NCBI GenBank assembly: GCA_944389065.1
Contig: CALXKZ010000028.1
Span: 1 to 64,000 of the forward strand
Origin: an uncultured Spirochaetaceae bacterium
GTDB taxonomy: Bacteria > Spirochaetota > Spirochaetia > Sphaerochaetales > Sphaerochaetaceae
Reading direction: 5' to 3'
Length of the DNA stretch: 64,000 nt
Shown: one piece after another, positions 3,350 through 14,157 of the stretch
How positions within the stretch are numbered: the first letter of the stretch is position 1
How the letters are laid out: each line of letters starts with the position of its first letter
Notes under the pieces: generated by a model
What the model was told of the DNA's origin: nothing
Seen by the model: the letters and a program-made list of their open reading frames with translations, nothing else
Databases searched by the model: none
Program-made: the position numbers and the translations under genes

Positions 3350-3379
3350 TTGAGAAGGGAATCGATAAAGCAATATAAT
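3350..3379 (+). promoter_or_regulatory. pyrG promoter
   Basis: TTGAGA (3350-3355), 18 bp, TATAAT (3374-3379). Expected transcript start is near 3386, four bases before the leader hairpin begins. Confidence 0.65.
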
Positions 3380-3389
3380 GGCAACCAGT

Positions 3390-3435
3390 TGGACAAGGAC
3401 GTCTATCTCTGAAGGGGTAGGTGTCCTTTTTCTTT
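3390..3435 (+). promoter_or_regulatory. pyrG leader attenuator with ANTAR-like hexaloop hairpin
   Basis: Terminator form: 3395-3406 pairs with 3417-3428 (12 bp with three wobbles), followed by TTTTTCTTTTTC. Competing form: TGGAC (3390-3394) pairs with GTCTA (3401-3405), closing the hexaloop AAGGAC (3395-3400). The hexaloop hairpin uses the 5' arm of the terminator, so only one fold can exist. Loop positions 1 (A) and 4 (G) match the ANTAR-target rule. The same hexaloop occurs in the glutamate synthase leader. Confidence 0.6.
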
Positions 3436-3449
3436 TTCTGGAGGTGCGT

Positions 3450-5048
3450 ATGAATCGGAAATACATATTCGTTACAGGTGGTGTTGTATCAGGGCTCGGC
3501 AAGGGCGTAAGTGCTGCCAGCCTAGGACTGCTCTTGAAGCAGAGAGGGCTGAAGGTGGCTGCCCAGAAGCTTGATCCCTATCTCAATGTCGATCCTGGAA
3601 CGATGAGTCCTTATCAGCATGGGGAGGTCTTTGTTACAGAGGATGGAGCTGAGACAGATCTGGATCTGGGACACTATGAGAGGTTCATCGATGAAAACCT
3701 GAACAGAAAATCCAATCTGACAAGCGGCAAGGTATTCTGGAATATCCTGACAAGGGAAAGGAGGGGAGAGTACCTTGGCAGGACTGTCCAGATAATCCCT
3801 CATGTCACGGATGAGATAAAGTCCGCTATATACTCTGTGGGGGAGATGACAGGAGCGGATGTAGTGATTACCGAGATCGGCGGAACGATCGGGGATATCG
3901 AGAGCCAGCCTTTTCTGGAAGCCCTCAGGCAGCTGCGGACTGAGGTCGGGACAGAGAACTCGATGTTCATCCATGTTGTCCTTGTTCCATATCTTGCCTG
4001 CAGCGGGGAATACAAGACCAAGCCAAGCCAGCACTCTGTGCATGAGCTGCAGGGGATGGGAATTATGCCGGACTGCATAATCGCACGCTCGGATAAGACT
4101 CTGGATGATGAGATTCTTACGAAGATCGCGATGTTCTGCAATGTCGGAAGGCGCGCTGTGATAGGCAATGAGAATATGGCTCCGATCTATGCCCTCCCGT
4201 TGCTTCTCCATGAACGTGGGTTCGATGACTATGTCGTATCAAGGCTATCTCTGGAATGCAGAGAGTGTGATCTCAGAGCCTGGAGAGAGGCAGTTGACCG
4301 CATGGCAAAGCCAAAGGATCGCAAGGTCAGAATCGCAATATGCGGCAAATATGTGAAGCTGCATGACGCCTATCTCTCGATCAATGAAGCTCTGTACCAC
4401 GCCGCCAGCAGCAATGAGGCGGAGCTCGAGCTGCTGTTCGTTGATACAGAGGATGTTGAGAAGACCGGACCTGATAAGCTTCTTGCTGATGCTGATGGCA
4501 TACTTGTCCCCGGCGGATTCGGAGCAAGGGGCATTGAAGGAATGATACAATGCGCACGCTATGCACGGGAGCATGATGTCCCATATTTAGGGATATGCCT
4601 TGGAATGCAGATTGCTGTGATTGAGGCTGCTAGATCCCTAGCAGGCCTTGAGAGCGCCAATTCAAGGGAATTCGATCCGGATGGAGATGAATGCGTAATC
4701 GATCTTATGGATGAGCAGCGCAATATCACGTCAAAGGGTGGAACAATGCGTCTCGGGGCATATCCTTGTGAGATACGACGGGGAACACTTCTCCATGGAC
4801 TTTATGGGCAGGGCTCCATTCAGGAGAGGCATAGGCATCGCTATGAGGTATCTCCTGTATTCCGTGATAGAATTGCCAGCGCCCGGATAGTCTTCAGCGG
4901 AATGAGTCCTGATGGAAAGCTGGTTGAGGCAATGGAGAATCCCTCATGCCGCTTCTTTGCAGGTGTCCAGTTCCATCCTGAATTCAAGAGCCGTCCGAAC
5001 AGAGTCCATCCATTATTCGATGGATTCATCAAAGCTGCTTTGCAGTAA
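3450..5048 (+). CDS. pyrG: CTP synthase
   Basis: 532 residues. It makes CTP from UTP, ATP and glutamine in the cytosol. The N-terminal synthase domain opens with the nucleotide loop FVTGGVVSGLGKG. The C-terminal class I glutaminase domain has GICLGMQ with catalytic Cys at about residue 383 and the His/Glu pair in FHPEF near residue 515. I chose the ATG at 3450, which has TGGAGGTG just upstream and gives the conserved N-terminus. The longer frame from 3378 starts before the likely transcript start and runs through the leader terminator. Its leader resembles those of the glutamine genes. Confidence 0.97.
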   Translation: MNRKYIFVTGGVVSGLGKGVSAASLGLLLKQRGLKVAAQKLDPYLNVDPGTMSPYQHGEVFVTEDGAETDLDLGHYERFIDENLNRKSNLTSGKVFWNILTRERRGEYLGRTVQIIPHVTDEIKSAIYSVGEMTGADVVITEIGGTIGDIESQPFLEALRQLRTEVGTENSMFIHVVLVPYLACSGEYKTKPSQHSVHELQGMGIMPDCIIARSDKTLDDEILTKIAMFCNVGRRAVIGNENMAPIYALPLLLHERGFDDYVVSRLSLECRECDLRAWREAVDRMAKPKDRKVRIAICGKYVKLHDAYLSINEALYHAASSNEAELELLFVDTEDVEKTGPDKLLADADGILVPGGFGARGIEGMIQCARYAREHDVPYLGICLGMQIAVIEAARSLAGLESANSREFDPDGDECVIDLMDEQRNITSKGGTMRLGAYPCEIRRGTLLHGLYGQGSIQERHRHRYEVSPVFRDRIASARIVFSGMSPDGKLVEAMENPSCRFFAGVQFHPEFKSRPNRVHPLFDGFIKAALQ

Positions 5049-5088: not shown

Positions 5089-6675
5089 TCATTCTCCGCT
5101 TTTGCCATAGTTCGAAAGAACTCTGGCAGAAGGATCGGAGACATTGCATCCTGGCCAGCTGCTGTTAGGCATCCAGAAACCGGGAATCATTCTGTATTGC
5201 CTAGGATAGAAGCTTTCGAATATCTCTCTGTAGAGAAGGGACTCGGGCGTGAATGGCCTGCCGTTTTCCGGATACTTCCTGTATTCTGCTTCCAGATCCC
5301 TGCCTTGGTATTTCTCCTCAGCATATTTCTTAAGATCATCAACCATACTGTGGCCTACAGCATCACTGAAAGCGGCTTTCTCCCTCCAAAGGATATCATC
5401 AGGGAGCCAGCCCCCATTCTCGAAGGCCTTGCGAAGAAGATATTTCCCATGTCCGTAGCGGTTCATCTTCATCTCGGGATCAATTGAGAGAACATAGGAT
5501 GCGAAGTCAAGATCTCCGAAAGGCACCCTTGCCTCAATGCTGTTATCAGCAATGCACCTGTCAGCTCTAAGCACATCGTATGCATAAAGCTCATGGACGC
5601 GTTTCTTGCTCTCCTTCTCGAATTCCTCGGGATTCGGGGCGAAATCCGTGTATTTGTATCCGAAGAGCTCATCGGATACCTCTCCTGTAAGAAGCACCCT
5701 TATATCCGTATGCTCATGTATGTATCTGCAGAGCAGGAACATGCCTATGCTTGCGCGTATGGTTGTTATGTCGTATGTTGCCAGAGCGTTTATGACTTCA
5801 GGAAGGATGTTTATCACATCTTCTTCAGTCATTGTTACGTTCGTATGGATCGAGTCAAGGAATTCTGCTGTCTGCTCTGCATATTTTGAATCTATCGGAT
5901 CCTTGTCCATGCCGATGGAGAACGTGCGGATCGGCTTTCCGAGAGATCTTGAAGCAATGGAACATACAAGAGAGCTGTCCAGCCCCCCTGAGAGGAGGAA
6001 TGCGACAGGTGTGTCGGAATCAAGCCGCTTCTCAACGGCTTTGATAAGCTTGGCTCTGATGTTCTCCGTTATCTCTTCCATTTTTCCATGGGTATACTCC
6101 TTCACTTCAGAGATATCCCTGTAGCAGATGAATTTCCCTCCTTTATAGTAGTGTCCTGGAGGAAATGGGATCACGTCGCTGCAGAATGGAGTGAGAAGGC
6201 ATGCCTCGCTTGCAAAGGCTATCTTACCATCCTTGTCATAGCCATAGAAAAGAGGGCGGATGCCTATAGGATCCCTTGCTGCGATGAACCCTTCTCTTTT
6301 GTCATAGATGACAGTCGCATACTCAGCATCAAGGAGTTCAAACATCCTTTCCCCGTATTTCTCATAGAGATACAGGACTGTCTCACAGTCTGAATCTGAA
6401 TGGAAGATATAACCTTCATTCTCGAGCTGTTTCCGGATATTCCGGAAACCATAGATTTCTCCGTTTGTTATGCTATACATTCCTTTATATTCAAAAGGCT
6501 GCATCCCTCTTTCATCGGTGCCCATTATCGAGAGTCTCTGGAATGCTAGGAACAGATTCCTTTCAGGAGATAATATCCTCTGTGAATCCGGTCCTCTTCT
6601 TACTGTCCGTTCAAGGATCGCCCTGATCTGCGGAAGCCCTATAGCACTTCCACTGTAAGCAAATACTGTGCACAT
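5089..6675 (-). CDS. asnB: Asparagine synthetase B (glutamine-hydrolysing)
   Basis: 528 residues. Class II glutaminase domain with the nucleophile at Cys2, exposed once Met1 is removed. The synthetase domain has the ATP-pyrophosphatase motif SGGLDSS. It converts aspartate, glutamine and ATP to asparagine, glutamate, AMP and PPi. It is the last gene of the glutamate synthase operon, 8 bp after the GXGXG subunit gene, so asparagine production would be coexpressed with glutamate synthesis. Related class II synthetases amidate other substrates, but length and motifs fit AsnB. Confidence 0.88.
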   Translation of the reverse strand: MCTVFAYSGSAIGLPQIRAILERTVRRGPDSQRILSPERNLFLAFQRLSIMGTDERGMQPFEYKGMYSITNGEIYGFRNIRKQLENEGYIFHSDSDCETVLYLYEKYGERMFELLDAEYATVIYDKREGFIAARDPIGIRPLFYGYDKDGKIAFASEACLLTPFCSDVIPFPPGHYYKGGKFICYRDISEVKEYTHGKMEEITENIRAKLIKAVEKRLDSDTPVAFLLSGGLDSSLVCSIASRSLGKPIRTFSIGMDKDPIDSKYAEQTAEFLDSIHTNVTMTEEDVINILPEVINALATYDITTIRASIGMFLLCRYIHEHTDIRVLLTGEVSDELFGYKYTDFAPNPEEFEKESKKRVHELYAYDVLRADRCIADNSIEARVPFGDLDFASYVLSIDPEMKMNRYGHGKYLLRKAFENGGWLPDDILWREKAAFSDAVGHSMVDDLKKYAEEKYQGRDLEAEYRKYPENGRPFTPESLLYREIFESFYPRQYRMIPGFWMPNSSWPGCNVSDPSARVLSNYGKSGE

Positions 6676-6683
6676 AATCCACC

Positions 6684-7400
6684 TCAGACTGCAGCATAGA
6701 GCTGGCTGTATGTTTTTGATTTATCTGCCTCGATGGCGATGAAATCACCTTCAAGACAGCGCTCTTCCGGGATGGAGAACATCGATGCGAAGTCTTTGAT
6801 TATCGGACGGAGCATCTCTTCCTTCTCTTTCTCATCCACATTGCGCTTGATCAGCTTGTCAGAGAGATTCAGAGGTGGTTTGTCCGTTCTTAGATAGATT
6901 GTCCCTGCATACATTCCATTGCCGCAGAAGTATCCTGTGATGTCTCTTTCTTCATCGCCGAGCCCGAGAACTATGATGATACCGCCTGCAAGGTATTCCC
7001 CAAGGAATGATCCAGCCCTTCCTCCTATGACAAGGATGCTTTTCTTGTCTTCATATGCTTTCATATGGACACCTGCTCTGTATCCTGCATCACCGAGCAC
7101 ATAGACACGTCCTCCGCGCATACCATATGCAAGAGCATCTCCAGCAGAGCCTTTTATGGCAAGAAGACCCGCGTTCATCGTATCCGCAGCAGCATCCTGT
7201 GCATTGCCTTCGACATAGATCGAGCCCCCATCAAGATAGGAAGCAAGGGCATTGCCAGGAATACCTTTGACATGGAGTATTCCGCTTTTCATGCCGCATC
7301 CTATATATCTATCACCGAGGCAGCCCGTTATTGTGATCTCCTCATTCTCATGTTTTCTTATCTCTTCAAGTCCGTCTTTTCTGATATCGAATGTCTTCAT
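6684..7400 (-). CDS. Glutamate synthase GXGXG-domain subunit (GltB3-like)
   Basis: 238 residues from the chosen ATG at 7400, which has CAGGAGA 6 nt upstream and lies 1 nt after the stop of the previous gene. An in-frame ATG at 7415 would overlap that gene. The protein is one parallel beta-helix domain of repeated glycine turns (GCGMKSG, YGMRGGRVYVLGDAG, FCGNGMYAGTIYL). This corresponds to the C-terminal domain of bacterial GltB and to FwdC-type proteins. In the split archaeal-type enzyme it is structural, organising the tunnel between the amidotransferase and FMN sites. Confidence 0.88.
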   Translation of the reverse strand: MKTFDIRKDGLEEIRKHENEEITITGCLGDRYIGCGMKSGILHVKGIPGNALASYLDGGSIYVEGNAQDAAADTMNAGLLAIKGSAGDALAYGMRGGRVYVLGDAGYRAGVHMKAYEDKKSILVIGGRAGSFLGEYLAGGIIIVLGLGDEERDITGYFCGNGMYAGTIYLRTDKPPLNLSDKLIKRNVDEKEKEEMLRPIIKDFASMFSIPEERCLEGDFIAIEADKSKTYSQLYAAV

Positions 7401-7401
7401 T

Positions 7402-8886
7402 TCATTCTCCTGCATATCTGATTCCTAGGATTTCCAGTTCCTTTGCGTTCAGGTCGATTCCACAGAGCGCCATCCGGTTGCCTCTGAGAGCTTCAATGCT
7501 GTTGATTCCCATTCCTCCCATGATCTCCTTTATTTCCCTGGTCCATGCATTCACAAGATTGATAAGCCTTTCAGCTCCTTTTTCCGGATCAAGCCTTTTT
7601 GTGAGCTCCGGATCCTGGGTTGCCAGTCCCCATGCGCATTTGCCCGTATGGCAGGATGCACATATATGGCAGCCAAGGGCACAGAGGGCTGCTGTTCCGA
7701 TTGAGACAGCATCCGCTCCAAGCGCAATGGCTTTGACGGCATCAGAAGAGTTCCTTATCCCTCCGGATGCAATGACACTGACTCTGTCCCTTATTCTTTC
7801 TTCCCTGAGCCTTTGATCGACAGCTGCTATTGCCAGCTCAATCGGGATGCCTACATTGTCCCGGATCCTTTTGGGAGCAGCGCCTGTTCCTCCTCTGTAT
7901 CCATCGATTGAGATGATATCTGCTCCGCTTCTGGCAATTCCGGAGGCGATTGGGGCAATATTATGTACAGCAGCGACCTTGACGATCACGGGTTTTCTAT
8001 AGCCGGTAGCTTCTTTTATCGACATGACAAGCTGTGCAAGATCCTCGATGGAGTAGATATCGTGATGCGGAGCGGGGCTTATGGCATCAAGTCCTTCAGG
8101 AACCATTCTTGTCTTCGAGACATCGCCTATGATCTTCCGGCCTGTGAGGTGCCCTCCGATTCCGGGCTTTGCGCCCTGTCCTATCTTTATCTCAATAGCG
8201 GCAGCGGTGTTGAGATATGTCTCATGAACACCGAAGCGTCCTGAAGCTACCTGGACGATTGTATTCTCCTTATATGGATAAAGACTTTCATGGAGGCCTC
8301 CTTCTCCTGTATTCCAGTAAGTACCAAGCCTTTCTGCGGCTGCTGCAAGCGCTTTATGGACATTCAGGCTTATCGCTCCATAGCTCATGGCTGAGAACAT
8401 CACCGGGGTCCTGAGCTCCAGGTGAGGTGGAAGATTGTCTGTGATACATCCATTCATATCCCTTGCTATCTTCTCCGGTCTCTGTCCTAGGAATACAGCA
8501 GTCTCCATAGGCTCCCGCAGCGGATCAATCGATGGATTCGTGACCTGACTGGCATTCAGAAGCATCTTGTCGAAGTAGATCGGAACATTCTTGCCGGAGG
8601 CTCCCATTGATGAAAGAAGCACACCGCCTGTCTCAGACTGCAGAAGAATTTCATTTATGTCATCTTCGGAAAAGACTGTGTTCCTTCTGAACCTGTTCTC
8701 ATCTTCTATGATGGAGATTGCATTTACCGGACAGAAGGATACGCATCTCTGGCAGTCTGTACACTTCTCATGATGGAGGGCAATCACTTTATCTGTATCT
8801 GATGTGATTGCTCCGTATGAGCACTCCCTTACGCACCGCAGGCATGATATGCAGCTGTCATGCTTTTTGATTCTGTACCTGATCAT
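7402..8886 (-). CDS. Glutamate synthase FMN-binding subunit with N-terminal ferredoxin domain (GltB2-like)
   Basis: 494 residues. Two [4Fe-4S] motifs open the protein: CISCLRCVREC at residues 13-23 and CTDCQRCVSFCP at about 42-53. The rest is the FMN-binding TIM barrel of glutamate synthase, including SIDGYRGGTGAAP and the Cys-rich iron-sulphur segment CALGCHICASCHTGKC near residues 400-420. It condenses 2-oxoglutarate with ammonia channelled from the glutaminase partner, giving glutamate. The built-in ferredoxin domain suggests electrons arrive from ferredoxin or a separate NAD(P)H subunit, which is not encoded nearby. It overlaps the glutaminase gene by 4 bp. Confidence 0.92.
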   Translation of the reverse strand: MIRYRIKKHDSCISCLRCVRECSYGAITSDTDKVIALHHEKCTDCQRCVSFCPVNAISIIEDENRFRRNTVFSEDDINEILLQSETGGVLLSSMGASGKNVPIYFDKMLLNASQVTNPSIDPLREPMETAVFLGQRPEKIARDMNGCITDNLPPHLELRTPVMFSAMSYGAISLNVHKALAAAAERLGTYWNTGEGGLHESLYPYKENTIVQVASGRFGVHETYLNTAAAIEIKIGQGAKPGIGGHLTGRKIIGDVSKTRMVPEGLDAISPAPHHDIYSIEDLAQLVMSIKEATGYRKPVIVKVAAVHNIAPIASGIARSGADIISIDGYRGGTGAAPKRIRDNVGIPIELAIAAVDQRLREERIRDRVSVIASGGIRNSSDAVKAIALGADAVSIGTAALCALGCHICASCHTGKCAWGLATQDPELTKRLDPEKGAERLINLVNAWTREIKEIMGGMGINSIEALRGNRMALCGIDLNAKELEILGIRYAGE

Positions 8887-9974
8887 CTTACCTCCTCATT
8901 GAGCGTGACAATCACTGCTTCTCCTCCGCGCGGAGCCCAGATCCTGTCAGGATTCTCTTCAATGACTCTTATCGCAGCTTCTTCAGAACTGAAATAAACG
9001 ATGTTCTCTTTCTCTGCTGCAACAAGGCTTCTGAGCTTTAGCCTGTCATTCAGCGCCATAATTCCACCTCTGAATCCGACAAGTATGGAAAATGGTCCTG
9101 TGATCAGGAAGGATGAGAACATCTTCCTTAGGTAGGAGAGCCTTTGTCTTTCTTCCTCGTTCTTTGCCGCAATTGTTGTCCAGAACGGAGAGGCTATCAC
9201 CTCGGAGCTTTCCTTCAGCGTAAGTCCCTGTTTCCTTGTCAGATAATCCAGTATGTATGTTATGACTTCGGTATCAGTCAGAAGATTGCAGGAGTATCCG
9301 TACATCTCAACAGCTCTGCGATTCGCATCATAGGATGAGATCTCTCCATTGTGGACGACTGTGAGGTCCAGCAGCGAGAACGGATGGGAGCCAGCCCACC
9401 ATCCTGGCGTATTTGTCGGATAGCGTCCGTGTGCAGTCCATGAATAGCCTTCATACTCCTCAATCCGATAGAAATCAGCGACGTCCTCAGGGTATCCTAC
9501 AGCTTTGAATACCCCCATATCCTTGCCGCAGGAGACGACATAGGCGCCATCTATTGAATCATTTATCGTGATTGTGGCCCTGGATGTGTATTCGTCCTCG
9601 TCAAGCTGGCTATCCTGCAGAAGATGCGGAAGCGGGGTGATGAAGTATCGCCATATAAGCGGTGCATCCGATATGCCAGGAGTCTGTCTTACTGGGATCT
9701 TCGAGAGATTTATTATATCGAAGCGCTTATCCAGGAATCTCTCGGTCTCCTCTCTGGAAGTCTGGGAGTCATAGAATATGTGCAGTGCAAAATAATCCTT
9801 GTATTGAGGATAGATGCCGTAAGCTGCGAATCCGCCTCCTAGTCCATTTGATCTGTTGTGCATTACTGCGATGCTTTTCTTTATCGCTTCTCCTGTGATG
9901 CGTTTCCCATCGCGGCAGAATATTCCGCTTATGGCACATCCTGAGCTGATTCTCACTTCGCCTTCTTTCTTCAT
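8883..9974 (-). CDS. Glutamate synthase class II glutaminase subunit (GltB1-like)
   Basis: 363 residues. It hydrolyses glutamine to feed ammonia to the FMN subunit. The start of the family domain is C13-A-I-S-G-I-F, and SNGLGGGFAAYG follows. Class II glutaminases need an N-terminal Cys, so either a 12-residue propeptide is removed before Cys13 or the true start is elsewhere; I see no better start. The region SWTAHGRYPTNTPGWW is the glutamine-binding part. First gene of a four-gene operon; its promoter and a leader terminator lie just upstream. Confidence 0.88.
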   Translation of the reverse strand: MKKEGEVRISSGCAISGIFCRDGKRITGEAIKKSIAVMHNRSNGLGGGFAAYGIYPQYKDYFALHIFYDSQTSREETERFLDKRFDIINLSKIPVRQTPGISDAPLIWRYFITPLPHLLQDSQLDEDEYTSRATITINDSIDGAYVVSCGKDMGVFKAVGYPEDVADFYRIEEYEGYSWTAHGRYPTNTPGWWAGSHPFSLLDLTVVHNGEISSYDANRRAVEMYGYSCNLLTDTEVITYILDYLTRKQGLTLKESSEVIASPFWTTIAAKNEEERQRLSYLRKMFSSFLITGPFSILVGFRGGIMALNDRLKLRSLVAAEKENIVYFSSEEAAIRVIEENPDRIWAPRGGEAVIVTLNEEVR

Positions 9975-9991: not shown

Positions 9992-10037
9992 TGAAAAAAA
10001 GGACGCACTAAGATCTCTCTTAGAACGTCCTTGTTCC
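9992..10037 (-). promoter_or_regulatory. Glutamate synthase leader attenuator with two ANTAR-like hexaloops
   Basis: Read on the minus strand. Terminator: AAGGACG pairs with CGTCCTT and the apical CTAAG with CTTAG, followed by seven T (arms at plus 9999-10032). Competing hairpin: GGAAC (10037-10033) pairs with GUUCU (10026-10022) around the hexaloop AAGGAC. It consumes the terminator 5' arm. The apical helix can stay folded beside it as UAAG / CUUA with hexaloop AGAGAU (plus 10013-10018). Both loops have A at position 1 and G at position 4. ANTAR targets are known as paired hexaloop hairpins; the near-zero linker here is unusual. Confidence 0.65.
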
Positions 10038-10045
10038 TTGGGGTA

Positions 10046-10075
10046 CTTTTACGACATATGAATAATGCTTGTCAA
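10046..10075 (-). promoter_or_regulatory. Glutamate synthase operon promoter (candidate)
   Basis: Minus strand TTGACA (10075-10070), 18 bp, TAAAAG (10051-10046). The start would be near 10039, just before the leader hairpin. A second candidate upstream is TTGGAT (10115-10110), 17 bp, TATATT (10092-10087). Confidence 0.5.
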
Positions 10076-10128
10076 TTGCCTGAATGAATATACTGCGAAT
10101 AAAAATGCAATCCAATGCATAAAACCAC

Positions 10129-10158
10129 TTGACTATTCCGCTGGAGATTTCCTAATAT
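10129..10158 (+). promoter_or_regulatory. glnA promoter
   Basis: TTGACT (10129-10134), 18 bp, TAATAT (10153-10158). The start is expected near 10165. The 18 bp spacer and the position relative to the leader hairpin match the pyrG and glutamate synthase promoters. Confidence 0.65.
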
Positions 10159-10169
10159 TCAGTCAGGAA

Positions 10170-10213
10170 CAGCAAAGGCGCTGCAGAGTATTATCTGTAG
10201 CGCTTTTTCCGTT
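10170..10213 (+). promoter_or_regulatory. glnA leader attenuator with ANTAR-like hexaloop hairpin
   Basis: Terminator: 10174-10187 pairs with 10194-10207 (core GCGCTGCAGA with TCTGTAGCGC, one G.U), followed by T-rich sequence. Competing hairpin: CAGC (10170-10173) pairs with GCTG (10180-10183) around the hexaloop AAAGGC, with A at position 1 and G at position 4. It uses the terminator 5' arm and would prevent termination. The terminator's own apical loop (GTATTA) does not fit the ANTAR rule. Confidence 0.6.
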
Positions 10214-10226
10214 TTTGGAGGAATTT

Positions 10227-11513
10227 ATGGATATTGAGGATATCAGAGAACTGCTTGCGGAATATGAGATCAAGTTCATAAGGCTTGCCTTCTGTGACAT
10301 CTCCGGGAGACAGAAGAACATCGCGATAATGGCTGATGAGCTTGAGCATGCGGTAAAACATGGTGTTTCATTCGATGCTTCGGCCATAAAGGGATTCCTC
10401 AATATAAACGAATCGGATCTGCTTCTTTTCCCTGACCTTGATACGTTCTCCATCCTTCCTTGGAGACCTGCGGAGAGAGCTGTGGCAAGGTTCTATTGCT
10501 ATATTGCATATCCAGATAGAAGACCATTTGAGGGTGATGGCAGGTATCTGCTTTCCGAGATAGAGAAGAAAAGCGGAAGTGCTGGCTACTCATTCCTTGT
10601 GGGACCAGAGTGCGAGTTCTATCTTTTTGAGACGGACGAGAAAGGATACCCTACGCTTGCTACGCTGGATGATGCGGGATACTTTGACATGGCTCCTCTT
10701 GACAGAGGGGAGAATGTAAGGCGTGAAATATGCTTTGCCCTGGAAAACATGGGACTTAAGCCTGAGAGGAGCCATCATGAGCATGGGCCGGGGCAGAATG
10801 AGATAGATTTCCGCTGTTCCTCTCCGCTGAAGGCAGCTGATGATCTTATGACATTCAAGACTGCTGTTAAAGCGATTGCCCAGCAGCATGGGCTATTTGC
10901 TTCCTTCCTTCCGAAACCTCTTGAGAAAGAGAGTGGGAATGGCCTTCACATCAATCTTTCACTGTATGAGAACAATGAGAATCTTTTTGAGAAAAAGGAT
11001 CCGAAAGCTATGTCTTTCATGTCAGGTATCCTGAGGAGGATGAAGGAGATAACAGCATTTGCAAATCCTCTTGTCTCCTCGTATGAGCGACTGGGGCAGT
11101 TTGAGGCGCCATCAACTGTCTCCTGGAGCCACCAGAACAGGTCCACGCTTATCAGAATACCATATGCCGAGGAGCATGATTGCCGAATGGAGGTCAGAAG
11201 CCCTGATCCTGCTGCCAACCCATACCTCCTTATTTCCCTTCTCCTGTCTGCTGGCTTTGAGGGCATTGCAGATAGGCTTGAAGCAGAACCTGAAGCAGCA
11301 GGTGATGTGCTCTCTTCCCCGCTTCCGGAAAGACTTCCAGCAAGTCTTTCCGAGGCGGTGGGAGAGGCTTCTGGAAGTTCTTTCATTTCCCGTGTGATTC
11401 CCGGAAGAATAGTGAAAGAGTATCTGGAGGATAGGACGATGGAAGCTGATGAGTATGAAAGAAACGGAAACGGCCACAGCTATCTGATCAGTCGGTATTT
11501 CCGGTTTATATAG
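10227..11513 (+). CDS. glnA: Glutamine synthetase type I
   Basis: 428 residues from the ATG at 10227, which has GGAGG upstream. The longer frame from 10065 crosses the promoter and terminator and is rejected. Family features in order: beta-Grasp N-domain, GPECEFYLF metal site, HEHGPGQNEIDF, NGLHINLSL, and RMEVRSPD near the end of the catalytic core. It makes glutamine from glutamate, ammonia and ATP in the cytosol. No adenylylation-tyrosine segment is evident at this length, so control is more likely by transcription or feedback. First gene of an operon with an ANTAR protein and a second glutamine synthetase. Confidence 0.92.
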   Translation: MDIEDIRELLAEYEIKFIRLAFCDISGRQKNIAIMADELEHAVKHGVSFDASAIKGFLNINESDLLLFPDLDTFSILPWRPAERAVARFYCYIAYPDRRPFEGDGRYLLSEIEKKSGSAGYSFLVGPECEFYLFETDEKGYPTLATLDDAGYFDMAPLDRGENVRREICFALENMGLKPERSHHEHGPGQNEIDFRCSSPLKAADDLMTFKTAVKAIAQQHGLFASFLPKPLEKESGNGLHINLSLYENNENLFEKKDPKAMSFMSGILRRMKEITAFANPLVSSYERLGQFEAPSTVSWSHQNRSTLIRIPYAEEHDCRMEVRSPDPAANPYLLISLLLSAGFEGIADRLEAEPEAAGDVLSSPLPERLPASLSEAVGEASGSSFISRVIPGRIVKEYLEDRTMEADEYERNGNGHSYLISRYFRFI

Positions 11514-11521
11514 GGCATCAT

Positions 11522-12073
11522 ATGGAAACGGTACTAGTGGTTGCCAAGCGGCCCAGATACGATGAGATAAGAACTCTGCTTTCTCCTGGCGGTTATGCAT
11601 TCATCAGAGCAGAAAGCGAGAGAGAGGCTCGGATGAAGATCCTTGATATCCAGCTGTCTCTTGTCATCGTCGATGGGCTTCTTCCTGAAGGCACTGCGAA
11701 GGAGGTTTCGGTTTTCTCTTCCTCTCAGGATATTGATACGATCCTTATTGTTCCCGATGGGCTTTTATGGCATATGGCTGGAACGATGAGGAAATATGGT
11801 GTTTATGCAGCGGCGTTCAACCGGGATAGCGTATCATCTGTGCTCGGAGCGATCGGTGTGGCCCGTGAAAAGACAATGAAGGCTGAAGAGAAGAACAGAA
11901 AGCTTCTTGTACGGCTCAGAAACGAGAAGCTGCTGACAGAGGCCAAATGCCTTCTGGCCCTGAAATACGGAATGAGTGAGAACGATGCTCACTGCTATAT
12001 AGAGAAAAAAGCTATGAATTGCAGAGTAAGCCTCTCTGATGCAGCAATGAGTATCGTCAGAGAGTTAGCATAG
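11522..12073 (+). CDS. ANTAR-domain antitermination regulator (NitR/AmiR-like)
   Basis: 183 residues. The N-terminal receiver-like fold keeps an Asp at residue 51 (VIVDGLLP) but lacks the acidic pair normally found after strand 1 (VLVVAKRPRYD), so it looks like a pseudo-receiver. A charged coiled coil follows at about 115-130 and the ANTAR RNA-binding three-helix domain at about 128-183 (LLTEAKCLLALKYG, AMNCRVSLSDAAMSIV). ANTAR proteins bind hexaloop hairpins and block terminators. In clostridia, an ANTAR protein encoded beside glnA has been proposed to regulate glnA and glutamate synthase. No histidine kinase is adjacent, so the input signal is unknown. Confidence 0.9.
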   Translation: METVLVVAKRPRYDEIRTLLSPGGYAFIRAESEREARMKILDIQLSLVIVDGLLPEGTAKEVSVFSSSQDIDTILIVPDGLLWHMAGTMRKYGVYAAAFNRDSVSSVLGAIGVAREKTMKAEEKNRKLLVRLRNEKLLTEAKCLLALKYGMSENDAHCYIEKKAMNCRVSLSDAAMSIVRELA

Positions 12074-12084
12074 GAGGGTTGAAT

Positions 12085-14157
12085 ATGAACGTACCTGAAA
12101 TGTTTGGTTCTATGGTCTTCAATGATTATGTAATGAGAGAAATGCTACCGAAAAAGGTATATCAATCATTGAAGAATACTATGGTTGAAGGTAAAGCCCT
12201 GGATGATGACGTTGCTGATATCGTAGCGGCAGCGATGAAGGAATGGGCTGTCGGAAAGGGTGCGACACACTTTACCCATTGGTTCCAGCCGATGACTGGG
12301 ATAACGGCGGAAAAGCATGACAGCTTCCTTACGGTAGATAAGAACGGGTGTGTGATCATGGACTTCTCCGGGAAGGAGCTGACCAAAGGTGAGCCTGATG
12401 CGTCAAGTTTTCCATCCGGCGGCCTCAGAGCTACCTTCGAGGCACGCGGCTATACCGCATGGGATCCAACAAGCTATGCGTTCATCAAGGATGACACGCT
12501 GTGCATCCCCACTGCTTTCTGTTCCTATACAGGCCAGATCCTGGATAAGAAGACGCCTCTTCTGAGAAGTATGGATGCGATAAGCAGAGAAGCTGTAAGG
12601 ACACTTGCGCTTTTGGGAAAGCATGTAAGAAGGGTCAATGCCACAATAGGTGCGGAGCAGGAGTATTTCCTTATTGATAAGAACGATTATTCCAAGAGGC
12701 TTGACCTCAGATTGACAGGCCGTACTCTGATCGGTGCACCGGCAGCGAAAGGCCAGGAGATGGAAGACCACTATTTTGGTTCAATCCGGCCAAGGGTGAA
12801 GGCTTTCATGGCAGATCTTGATGAGGAACTATGGAAACTAGGCATAACGTCAAAAACGGAGCATAACGAGGTTGCTCCATGCCAGCACGAGATGGCTCCG
12901 ATATTCGACAACGCGAATAAGGCAACAGATTCAAACCAGCTTACGATGGAGATGATGAAGAAGGTCGCGGAAAAACATGGTTTTGCCTGTCTTCTTCATG
13001 AAAAACCTTTTGAAGGCATCAATGGATCAGGCAAGCACAACAACTGGGCGCTGAGCACGGATGAAGGGGAGAATCTCCTTGATCCTGGAAAGACCCCGAA
13101 GGACAATGCCCAGTTCCTCCTTTTTCTGACAGCTGTGATAAAGGCAGTCGATGAGTATCAGGATCTTCTGAGGATAAGCGTTGCAAGCGCAGGAAACGAT
13201 CATCGTCTCGGAGCCAATGAAGCACCTCCTGCGATTGTGTCGATCTTTGTCGGAGATGAGCTTGGTGCTGTTATTGATTCGATAATCGATGGAACACCGT
13301 TTACGGATAGGGCTTCTTCCCATCTTGATATCGGTACAGGTGTCCTTCCTAAGCTTGCCCGTGACAACTCTGACAGGAACAGGACCAGTCCGTTCGCGTT
13401 TACGGGCAACAAGTTCGAGTTCCGCATGCCAGGTTCTTCATTCAACATCGCATGTACGAATGTAATGCTCAACACTGCAGTTGCCGATGCGCTGAAAGCT
13501 TTCTGCGATGAGCTTGAAGGGGCAGATGATTTCAATCCAGCCCTCAAAGCATTGATAAAAAGAGAGCTTGAGAAGCACAGAAGGATTCTCTTCAATGGAA
13601 ACGGCTACAGCAAGGAGTGGGAGGAGGAAGCTGAGCGGCGTGGGCTGTCAAATTATAAAAGGACGCCGGATGCTCTTGTCCATTATTGCGATGAGAAGAA
13701 TGTGGAGCTTTTCAGAAGGCATAAGGTATATACAAAGGAAGAGATGGAATCGAGGCTGGAGATATCCCTTGATGAGTATCAGAAGGCGATACATATCGAA
13801 GCTGCGACAATGATTGAAATGCTCAGACGGCAGATCATGCCTGCATCCCTCAGGTTCTCTTCATCACTTGCCTCGTCAGCAAAGACGAAGGAAAGCATAG
13901 GTATATCCGCTGATGCGGAGAGGGCTCTTTGCATGAAAGTGAGTTCATTGTGCAATGAGCTTATGCTCAGAACTGAGAATCTTGACAGATGTATCTCTGA
14001 AAGTCCGGAAGGTACAGAGGCTGCTGCTTTCTATGCTGCTGATAAGATCATTCCTGCGATGGAGGCTGCCAGAAAAGCCAGCGATAGTCTTGAAGCAATC
14101 TCAGATAAGGAATTCTGGCCTGTCCCAACGTATTCTGAGATCCTTTTCTATGTATGA
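12085..14157 (+). CDS. glnN: Glutamine synthetase type III
   Basis: 690 residues, the large GSIII form. The ATG at 12085 has AGGAGGG 6 nt upstream; a TTG at 12079 is less likely. Seen in order: GSIII N-terminal domain with THFTHWFQPMTG, the metal site GAEQEYFLI, HNEVAPCQHEMAP, the loop GINGSGKHNNWA, NRTSPFAFTGNKFEFR, and a long helical C-terminus. It makes glutamine, like the GSI two genes upstream. Having GSI and GSIII in one operon with the ANTAR protein means antitermination in the glnA leader would raise both. A 14 bp hairpin follows the stop codon. Confidence 0.95.
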   Translation: MNVPEMFGSMVFNDYVMREMLPKKVYQSLKNTMVEGKALDDDVADIVAAAMKEWAVGKGATHFTHWFQPMTGITAEKHDSFLTVDKNGCVIMDFSGKELTKGEPDASSFPSGGLRATFEARGYTAWDPTSYAFIKDDTLCIPTAFCSYTGQILDKKTPLLRSMDAISREAVRTLALLGKHVRRVNATIGAEQEYFLIDKNDYSKRLDLRLTGRTLIGAPAAKGQEMEDHYFGSIRPRVKAFMADLDEELWKLGITSKTEHNEVAPCQHEMAPIFDNANKATDSNQLTMEMMKKVAEKHGFACLLHEKPFEGINGSGKHNNWALSTDEGENLLDPGKTPKDNAQFLLFLTAVIKAVDEYQDLLRISVASAGNDHRLGANEAPPAIVSIFVGDELGAVIDSIIDGTPFTDRASSHLDIGTGVLPKLARDNSDRNRTSPFAFTGNKFEFRMPGSSFNIACTNVMLNTAVADALKAFCDELEGADDFNPALKALIKRELEKHRRILFNGNGYSKEWEEEAERRGLSNYKRTPDALVHYCDEKNVELFRRHKVYTKEEMESRLEISLDEYQKAIHIEAATMIEMLRRQIMPASLRFSSSLASSAKTKESIGISADAERALCMKVSSLCNELMLRTENLDRCISESPEGTEAAAFYAADKIIPAMEAARKASDSLEAISDKEFWPVPTYSEILFYV

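Follow-up and report, generated by a model that had tools for sequence, protein, structure and literature searches.

Leaders with a single 5'-terminal hexaloop hairpin as candidate ANTAR antitermination targets in a proposed glutamine regulon of Spirochaetia

Leaders that precede glutamine genes in a spirochaete genome and its relatives, a group of gut spirochaetes, carry promoter-like elements, a hexaloop hairpin and an overlapping intrinsic terminator. These elements are conserved, the two RNA structures covary, and the sites co-occur with ANTAR genes. As judged from the sequences, each leader is very likely a protein-controlled transcription attenuator, in which ANTAR antitermination would act through one hexaloop at the 5' end and control a glutamine regulon. 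According to the proposed mechanism, transcripts, whose starts were deduced from the promoter-like sequences, would begin a few nucleotides before a hairpin of 14-16 nt with a C:G-closed hexaloop A1-A2-N-G4-R-Y. By default, the loop and the 3' arm of this weak hairpin (about -3 kcal/mol) would pair into the terminator (about -20 kcal/mol), and transcription would stop before the gene. The active ANTAR protein (encoded at 11522-12073) would grip the single hexaloop and hold the 5' arm of the terminator, so that polymerase reads through. Activation would be expected when glutamine or ammonium is scarce.

Results

Three hexaloop-terminator leaders in one locus

The window, i.e. the whole stretch of 64,000 nucleotides that was analysed, is contig C28 of a 2.3-Mb draft genome (G000) that is 87% complete and has Candidatus Ornithospirochaeta (Spirochaetia) among its named relatives. 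Gene families were assigned with Pfam. The order is pyrG (plus strand), the gltS cluster of asnB, GXGXG, glutamate synthase and amidotransferase genes (minus strand), and GSI-ANTAR-GSIII (plus strand). Leaders were searched for with a covariance model, R1, built on hexaloop-terminator leaders; it replaced a strict pattern search, which had missed glnA and pyrG. The features are as follows.

3350..3379, plus strand: pyrG promoter, TTGAGA - 18 nt - TATAAT (sequence and promoter scoring)
3390..3405, plus strand: hexaloop hairpin of the pyrG leader, TGGAC[AAGGAC]GTCTA, candidate ANTAR site (model match, E=3e-5)
3395..3431, plus strand: intrinsic terminator of the pyrG leader, overlapping the hexaloop hairpin, -17 kcal/mol
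3450..5048, plus strand: pyrG, CTP synthase, a glutamine amidotransferase (Pfam CTP_synth_N, E=4.8e-123; GATase, 1.4e-40)
5089..6675, minus strand: asnB-like asparagine synthase, last gene of the gltS cluster (Pfam)
6684..7415, minus strand: GXGXG domain protein, part of a split glutamate synthase (Pfam)
7402..8886, minus strand: glutamate synthase FMN/ferredoxin subunit (Pfam Glu_synthase, E=2.4e-140)
8883..9974, minus strand: glutamate synthase amidotransferase subunit (GlxB-like), first gene past the minus-strand leader (Pfam GATase_2)
9994..10032, minus strand: terminator of the gltS leader with GNRA-capped apex, -19 kcal/mol
10022..10037, minus strand: hexaloop hairpin of the gltS leader, GGAAC[AAGGAC]GTTCT (model match, E=6.4e-7)
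10046..10075, minus strand: gltS promoter, TTGACA - 18 nt - TAAAAG, weak -10 (promoter scoring and leader alignment)
10129..10158, plus strand: glnA promoter, TTGACT - 18 nt - TAATAT (promoter scoring and leader alignment)
10170..10183, plus strand: hexaloop hairpin of the glnA leader, CAGC[AAAGGC]GCTG (model match, E=6.4e-5)
10174..10208, plus strand: terminator of the glnA leader, about -21 kcal/mol
10227..11513, plus strand: glutamine synthetase type I (GSI, i.e. glnA), 428 aa, active-site motifs intact (Pfam)
11522..12073, plus strand: ANTAR protein with degenerate receiver-like domain, long helix and ANTAR domain (128-179) (Pfam, profile-PDB, AlphaFold and Foldseek)
12079..14157, plus strand: glutamine synthetase type III (GSIII) (Pfam)

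An earlier, sequence-only reading had proposed that the 5' arm of the terminator can alternatively form a 4-5 bp hexaloop hairpin in the glnA and glutamate synthase leaders, that both loops (AAAGGC and AAGGAC, respectively) have A1 and G4, and that the hairpins begin 8-11 nt past the -10 element. All three points were confirmed. In the glnA leader, a -35 element TTGACT (10129-10134) and a -10 element TAATAT (10153-10158) are followed after 11 nt by the hairpin (10170-10183). The gltS leader on the minus strand has TTGACA (10075-10070), a -10-like TAAAAG (10051-10046) and, after 8 nt, its hairpin (10037-10022). In both, the hexaloop is closed by a C:G pair. The -10 element of gltS is weak, yet CGTAAAA is present in 16/16 aligned leaders of clade A. 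A third hexaloop-terminator leader, absent from the earlier reading, precedes pyrG (3390-3431), and here 10 nt lie between TATAAT and the hairpin. Folding of the hexaloop hairpins yields -3.2 to -3.7 kcal/mol as against -17 to about -21 kcal/mol for the terminators, so the terminator should win unless the hairpin is held. Rfam gave no match at gathering score within the window.

Between the divergent promoters (10080-10130), relatives of clade A share a conserved repeat block, GAATAAAAATGCA-N6-TGNATA and TGNATAT. It resembles a transcription-factor site and was not evident in clade B.

Conservation and covariation of hairpin and terminator

The motif AAAGG alone proves little because terminators often start with A-runs, and the flanking stem therefore served as the control. 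A hexaloop stem of at least 4 bp flanks 129/356 terminators whose 5' arm opens with AANGRY in the fetched DNA, compared with 12/453 that lack G4 and 13/492 that lack A1 (25/945 together); the fetched loci are enriched for targets, and the controls were drawn from the same DNA. Stem lengths at AANGRY terminators are two-peaked, with maxima at 0 and at 4-5 bp. This contrast bears on the idea that the leaders are ordinary attenuators without ANTAR, such as nucleotide-sensing reiterative initiation as in Bacillus pyrG, or that the initially transcribed region is conserved for some other reason. The position of the hairpin at the deduced transcript start and the presence of pyrG among the targets would fit, and terminators that face a U-tract often have A-rich 5' arms. 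We nevertheless regard it as very unlikely, given that a flanking stem goes with A1 and G4, that the same element stands before gltS, GSI, GSIII, asnB and amtB, and that the sites co-occur with ANTAR (see below). Reiterative initiation in particular is disfavored by the 5' ends, which are not single-nucleotide runs.

An unselected alignment was assembled from 22 glnA and 20 gltS leaders taken by gene orthology alone. The hexaloop was kept in 22/22 glnA and 20/20 gltS leaders, and A1, A2, G4 and C6 were invariant throughout. The loss of A1 or G4 among orthologous leaders, on which the earlier reading had staked its claim, was thus not seen. Variation in the loop was limited to position 3 in glnA and to positions 3 and 5 in gltS, the latter in step with the opposite arm of the terminator. 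These orthology-selected leaders likewise kept the 5' arm of the hairpin stem, a part not shared with the terminator.

Covariation upstream of glutamine genes, which the earlier reading had put forward as a check, was found for the hairpin as well as for the terminator. Stem variants include CAGC/GCTG, GAAC/GTTC, GGAC/GTCC, AGAC/GTCT, CAAC/GTTG and TGAC/GTCA, and four of the five hairpin stem pairs show compensatory two-sided changes. The covariation score was 0.636 for the hairpin stem (shuffled: 0.267 +/- 0.030) and 0.566 for the terminator (shuffled: 0.251 +/- 0.015); the rows had been picked by a scan for the loop and a short stem, so pairing is partly by construction and the percentage of paired positions is inflated. 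In 9/45 sequences the terminator places U opposite G4; A would be the better partner there but never occurs (the rows were chosen with G4). Retention of G4 opposite U is what loop recognition would require.

The ANTAR protein

The product of 11522-12073 belongs to the ANTAR family. Its residues 128-179 match PF03861 with E = 2.4e-11 and 43.7 bits (curated cut-off, 27.3), and it is the only ANTAR protein found in its genome. A profile search against the PDB returned Rv1626, AmiR, EutV and NasR, and the AlphaFold model (pLDDT 89) matched Rv1626, RNA-bound EutV (6ww6) and AmiR in Foldseek. Of the EutV loop-contact residues, E160, K149, M172, N173 and R175 are retained, and His takes the place of Tyr164, as in AmiR; the RNA-contact residues R142 and R177 of EutV are not kept.

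The phospho-acceptor pocket of the receiver is not intact in the window protein, in which the acidic pair and the conserved Lys are missing; in the clade C protein the acceptor Asp is Asn. A pocket degenerate in this way suggests that a partner protein, in the manner of AmiC acting on AmiR, is more likely than a kinase to exert control. Beside the ANTAR gene, neither a kinase gene nor an AmiC homologue was seen. That the adjacent GSI might be the partner is a guess; this GSI is an ordinary conserved enzyme with 82-89% identity to near relatives.

Co-occurrence of sites and ANTAR genes

A sample of 198 Spirochaetia genomes was searched for strong sites, defined as R1 matches with E<=1e-3 and the hairpin present. 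ANTAR genes were found in 23 genomes and strong sites in 16, all of them ANTAR-positive. The frequencies, 16/23 with ANTAR versus 0/175 without, differ with p=1.7e-18, phylogeny not being corrected for. Sites span three families (f1, f11 and f24), and seven ANTAR-bearing genomes of the sample have no strong ones. G020 and G021, near-complete members of the genus (95-96%), lack both ANTAR and sites, whereas G070 (78% complete) has sites and yielded no ANTAR gene. Weak R1 matches in ANTAR-less genomes mostly lack the hexaloop stem; G082 has one (L218, E=0.007). The comparative evidence, in which sites and ANTAR genes occur together, supports the earlier proposal that the ANTAR protein controls the leaders.

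Gene neighborhoods were compared as well. GSI-ANTAR adjacency recurs across the class, in f24 as well as in several clades within the genus, and in clade C the GSI-ANTAR operon runs on into pyrG. In f11, ANTAR lies upstream of pyrG with the hexaloop between them. A clade C-type pyrG occurs in two genomes with a clade A ANTAR (G009:C69 and G033:C1, L106) and represents either a second paralogue or assembly contamination.

One hairpin at the predicted 5' end

Strong sigma-70-like promoters were located upstream of 55/104 leaders, against 1.1 expected. The distance from the -10 element to the 4-bp stem had a median of 10 nt (10-90%: 7-13). Transcription usually starts 6-8 nt past the -10 element, which puts the expected transcript start 0-6 nt ahead of the hairpin. 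With promoters that stop about 10 nt short of it, there is no room upstream for a recruitment hairpin. Upstream A1/G4 hairpins were not enriched either: a stem of at least 4 bp was present in 8/104 leaders versus 5.1 +/- 2.2 in shuffled DNA. The suggestion of a much shorter RNA than the two-hairpin targets holds on both counts. Compared with the definition of a dual-hairpin target (Ramesh 2012), the leaders have the A1/G4 hexaloop on a stem of at least 3 bp overlapping a terminator; a second A1/G4 hairpin (P1) within 2-25 nt was not found, the upstream space being taken by the promoter. On this evidence, the leader RNAs appear to resemble ANTAR antiterminators but to lack the two hairpins that define them.

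We consider it unlikely that the leaders are dual-hexaloop ANTAR RNAs after all, with transcripts starting further upstream or with the terminator apex acting as the second hexaloop. A hairpin further upstream would overlap the conserved promoters and is no commoner than in shuffled sequence. The apex of many gltS terminators can be drawn as TAAG[AGAGAT]CTTA with A1 and G4, but G4 is lost in L035 and A1 in L051. Such an apex loop is absent from the glnA leaders and not conserved in the pyrG leaders. AGAGAT was rejected as a second ANTAR loop because the apex varies between GAGA, GTGA and GTAA, i.e. it is a GNRA tetraloop. In the pyrG leaders of f11 (L066, L193 and L197), a second hexaloop, CAGGA[AAGGAT]TCCTG, stands directly after the first hairpin in G045 and G161, but its G4 is lost in G150. 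It is a possible route between one- and two-hairpin targets.

Inspection by eye of G093, from another spirochaete family, revealed a classical dual hexaloop that overlaps a terminator near an ANTAR gene (L182, minus strand near 2938). It reads CTTCAC[AATGGC]GTGAGG and then GTAAGC[AAAGAT]GCTTGT and precedes a BMC/EutS-like protein.

It is probable that ANTAR antitermination in spirochaetes manages with one hexaloop placed right at the 5' terminus of the transcript and, at odds with the present two-step model, with no recruitment hairpin; one protein would thereby run the whole glutamine regulon through a switch of about 40 nt.

Relation to known ANTAR systems

Full EutV association and full induction depend on both hairpins, and deletion of P1 impairs induction (PMC3369931). 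SELEX with NasR yielded two hairpins with a C:G-closed A1/G4 loop, a single hairpin binding about 12-fold more weakly (PMC7496416). One hexaloop may thus be too weak, because the published binding of single hairpins by EutV and NasR is poor (12 uM versus 1 uM; PMC3369931, PMC7496416). With the EutV-RNA structure, one hexaloop became the redefined minimal binding motif, but P1 was proposed as a recruitment hairpin for antitermination, and single sites were expected where the polymerase time limit is absent (PMC8934654). The idea of a single hexaloop is accordingly not new; what appears to be new is a natural regulon built on such antiterminators. If the assignment is correct, about a hundred natural leaders antiterminate with one hexaloop, and the two-step model becomes directly testable.

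EutV/EutW of Enterococcus and Listeria share with the spirochaete system the ANTAR fold (6ww6) and an A1/G4 hexaloop overlapping an intrinsic terminator. However, EutV sites have two hairpins whereas the spirochaete leaders have one at the 5' end, and the spirochaete receiver is degenerate, without a kinase alongside. The nitrate antiterminators NasR/NasT also serve nitrogen genes, and the spirochaete loops match the NasR SELEX consensus exactly in closing pair (C:G), A1 and G4 (PMC7496416), but the nasF leader is a two-hairpin RNA and the sensor domain is different. AmiC-AmiR of the Pseudomonas amidase system likewise combines a pseudo-receiver with ANTAR, has His at the G4-contact position and works without a kinase; in contrast, the ligand-sensing partner of AmiR is known and its target is a dual hairpin. 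In clostridia, the ANTAR gene nitR reportedly adjoins glnA, as in the window, and NitR is said to have been proposed as a glnA antiterminator.

Earlier ANTAR surveys list Firmicutes, Proteobacteria, Actinobacteria and Bacteroidetes, and our literature search found no report of a spirochaete ANTAR. Under the present assignment, Spirochaetia would possess a nitrogen/glutamine regulon, one of a kind that would escape search models built to require two hairpins.

Extent of the proposed regulon

The scan of the whole own genome with R1 was unbiased and gave four matches at E<=10, namely gltS, pyrG, glnA and C29:24718. Matches were present in 43/48 genomes of the genus. Among 104 non-redundant leaders, 96 precede gltS (32), GSI (22), pyrG (14), asnB (12), GSIII (11) or amtB (5); many of these loci had been fetched for nearness to ANTAR or pyrG, and the proportions are not a census. 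The sequence-only reading had named glnA and glutamate synthase as the controlled operons. Both are supported, but the scope was understated: the window holds a third target, pyrG, and relatives add amtB and separate operons of asnB or GSIII. We propose that the regulon (GSI-ANTAR-GSIII, glutamate synthase with asnB, and pyrG) supplies or spends glutamine. One 45-aa query, run without a positive control, gave no match to amtB in the own genome.

The fourth hexaloop-terminator of the genome (C29:24718-24759; L142:2019-2060) has a ribosome site and a frame of 34 codons after it. It lies 300 nt before an operon for a solute-binding-protein ABC transporter and URO-D that seemingly has its own promoter, and is possibly a decoy RNA or a decayed target. 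This location would suit an ANTAR protein that binds hexaloops for another end, i.e. translational control, transcript decay or sequestration of the protein by decoys. Precedents are the decoy RNAs EutX/Rli55 (PMC8934654) and the translational ANTAR sites of mycobacteria (PMC8164766). As an account of the leaders at large we find it most improbable: none of the leaders lacks an overlapping strong terminator with U-tract, the loop lies about 55-65 nt before the start codon in most targets, and the hairpin leaves the ribosome site free. Antitermination remains the preferred reading.

In one relative, an ammonium transporter fused to a P-II domain is encoded behind a hexaloop leader (L174:950-2600).
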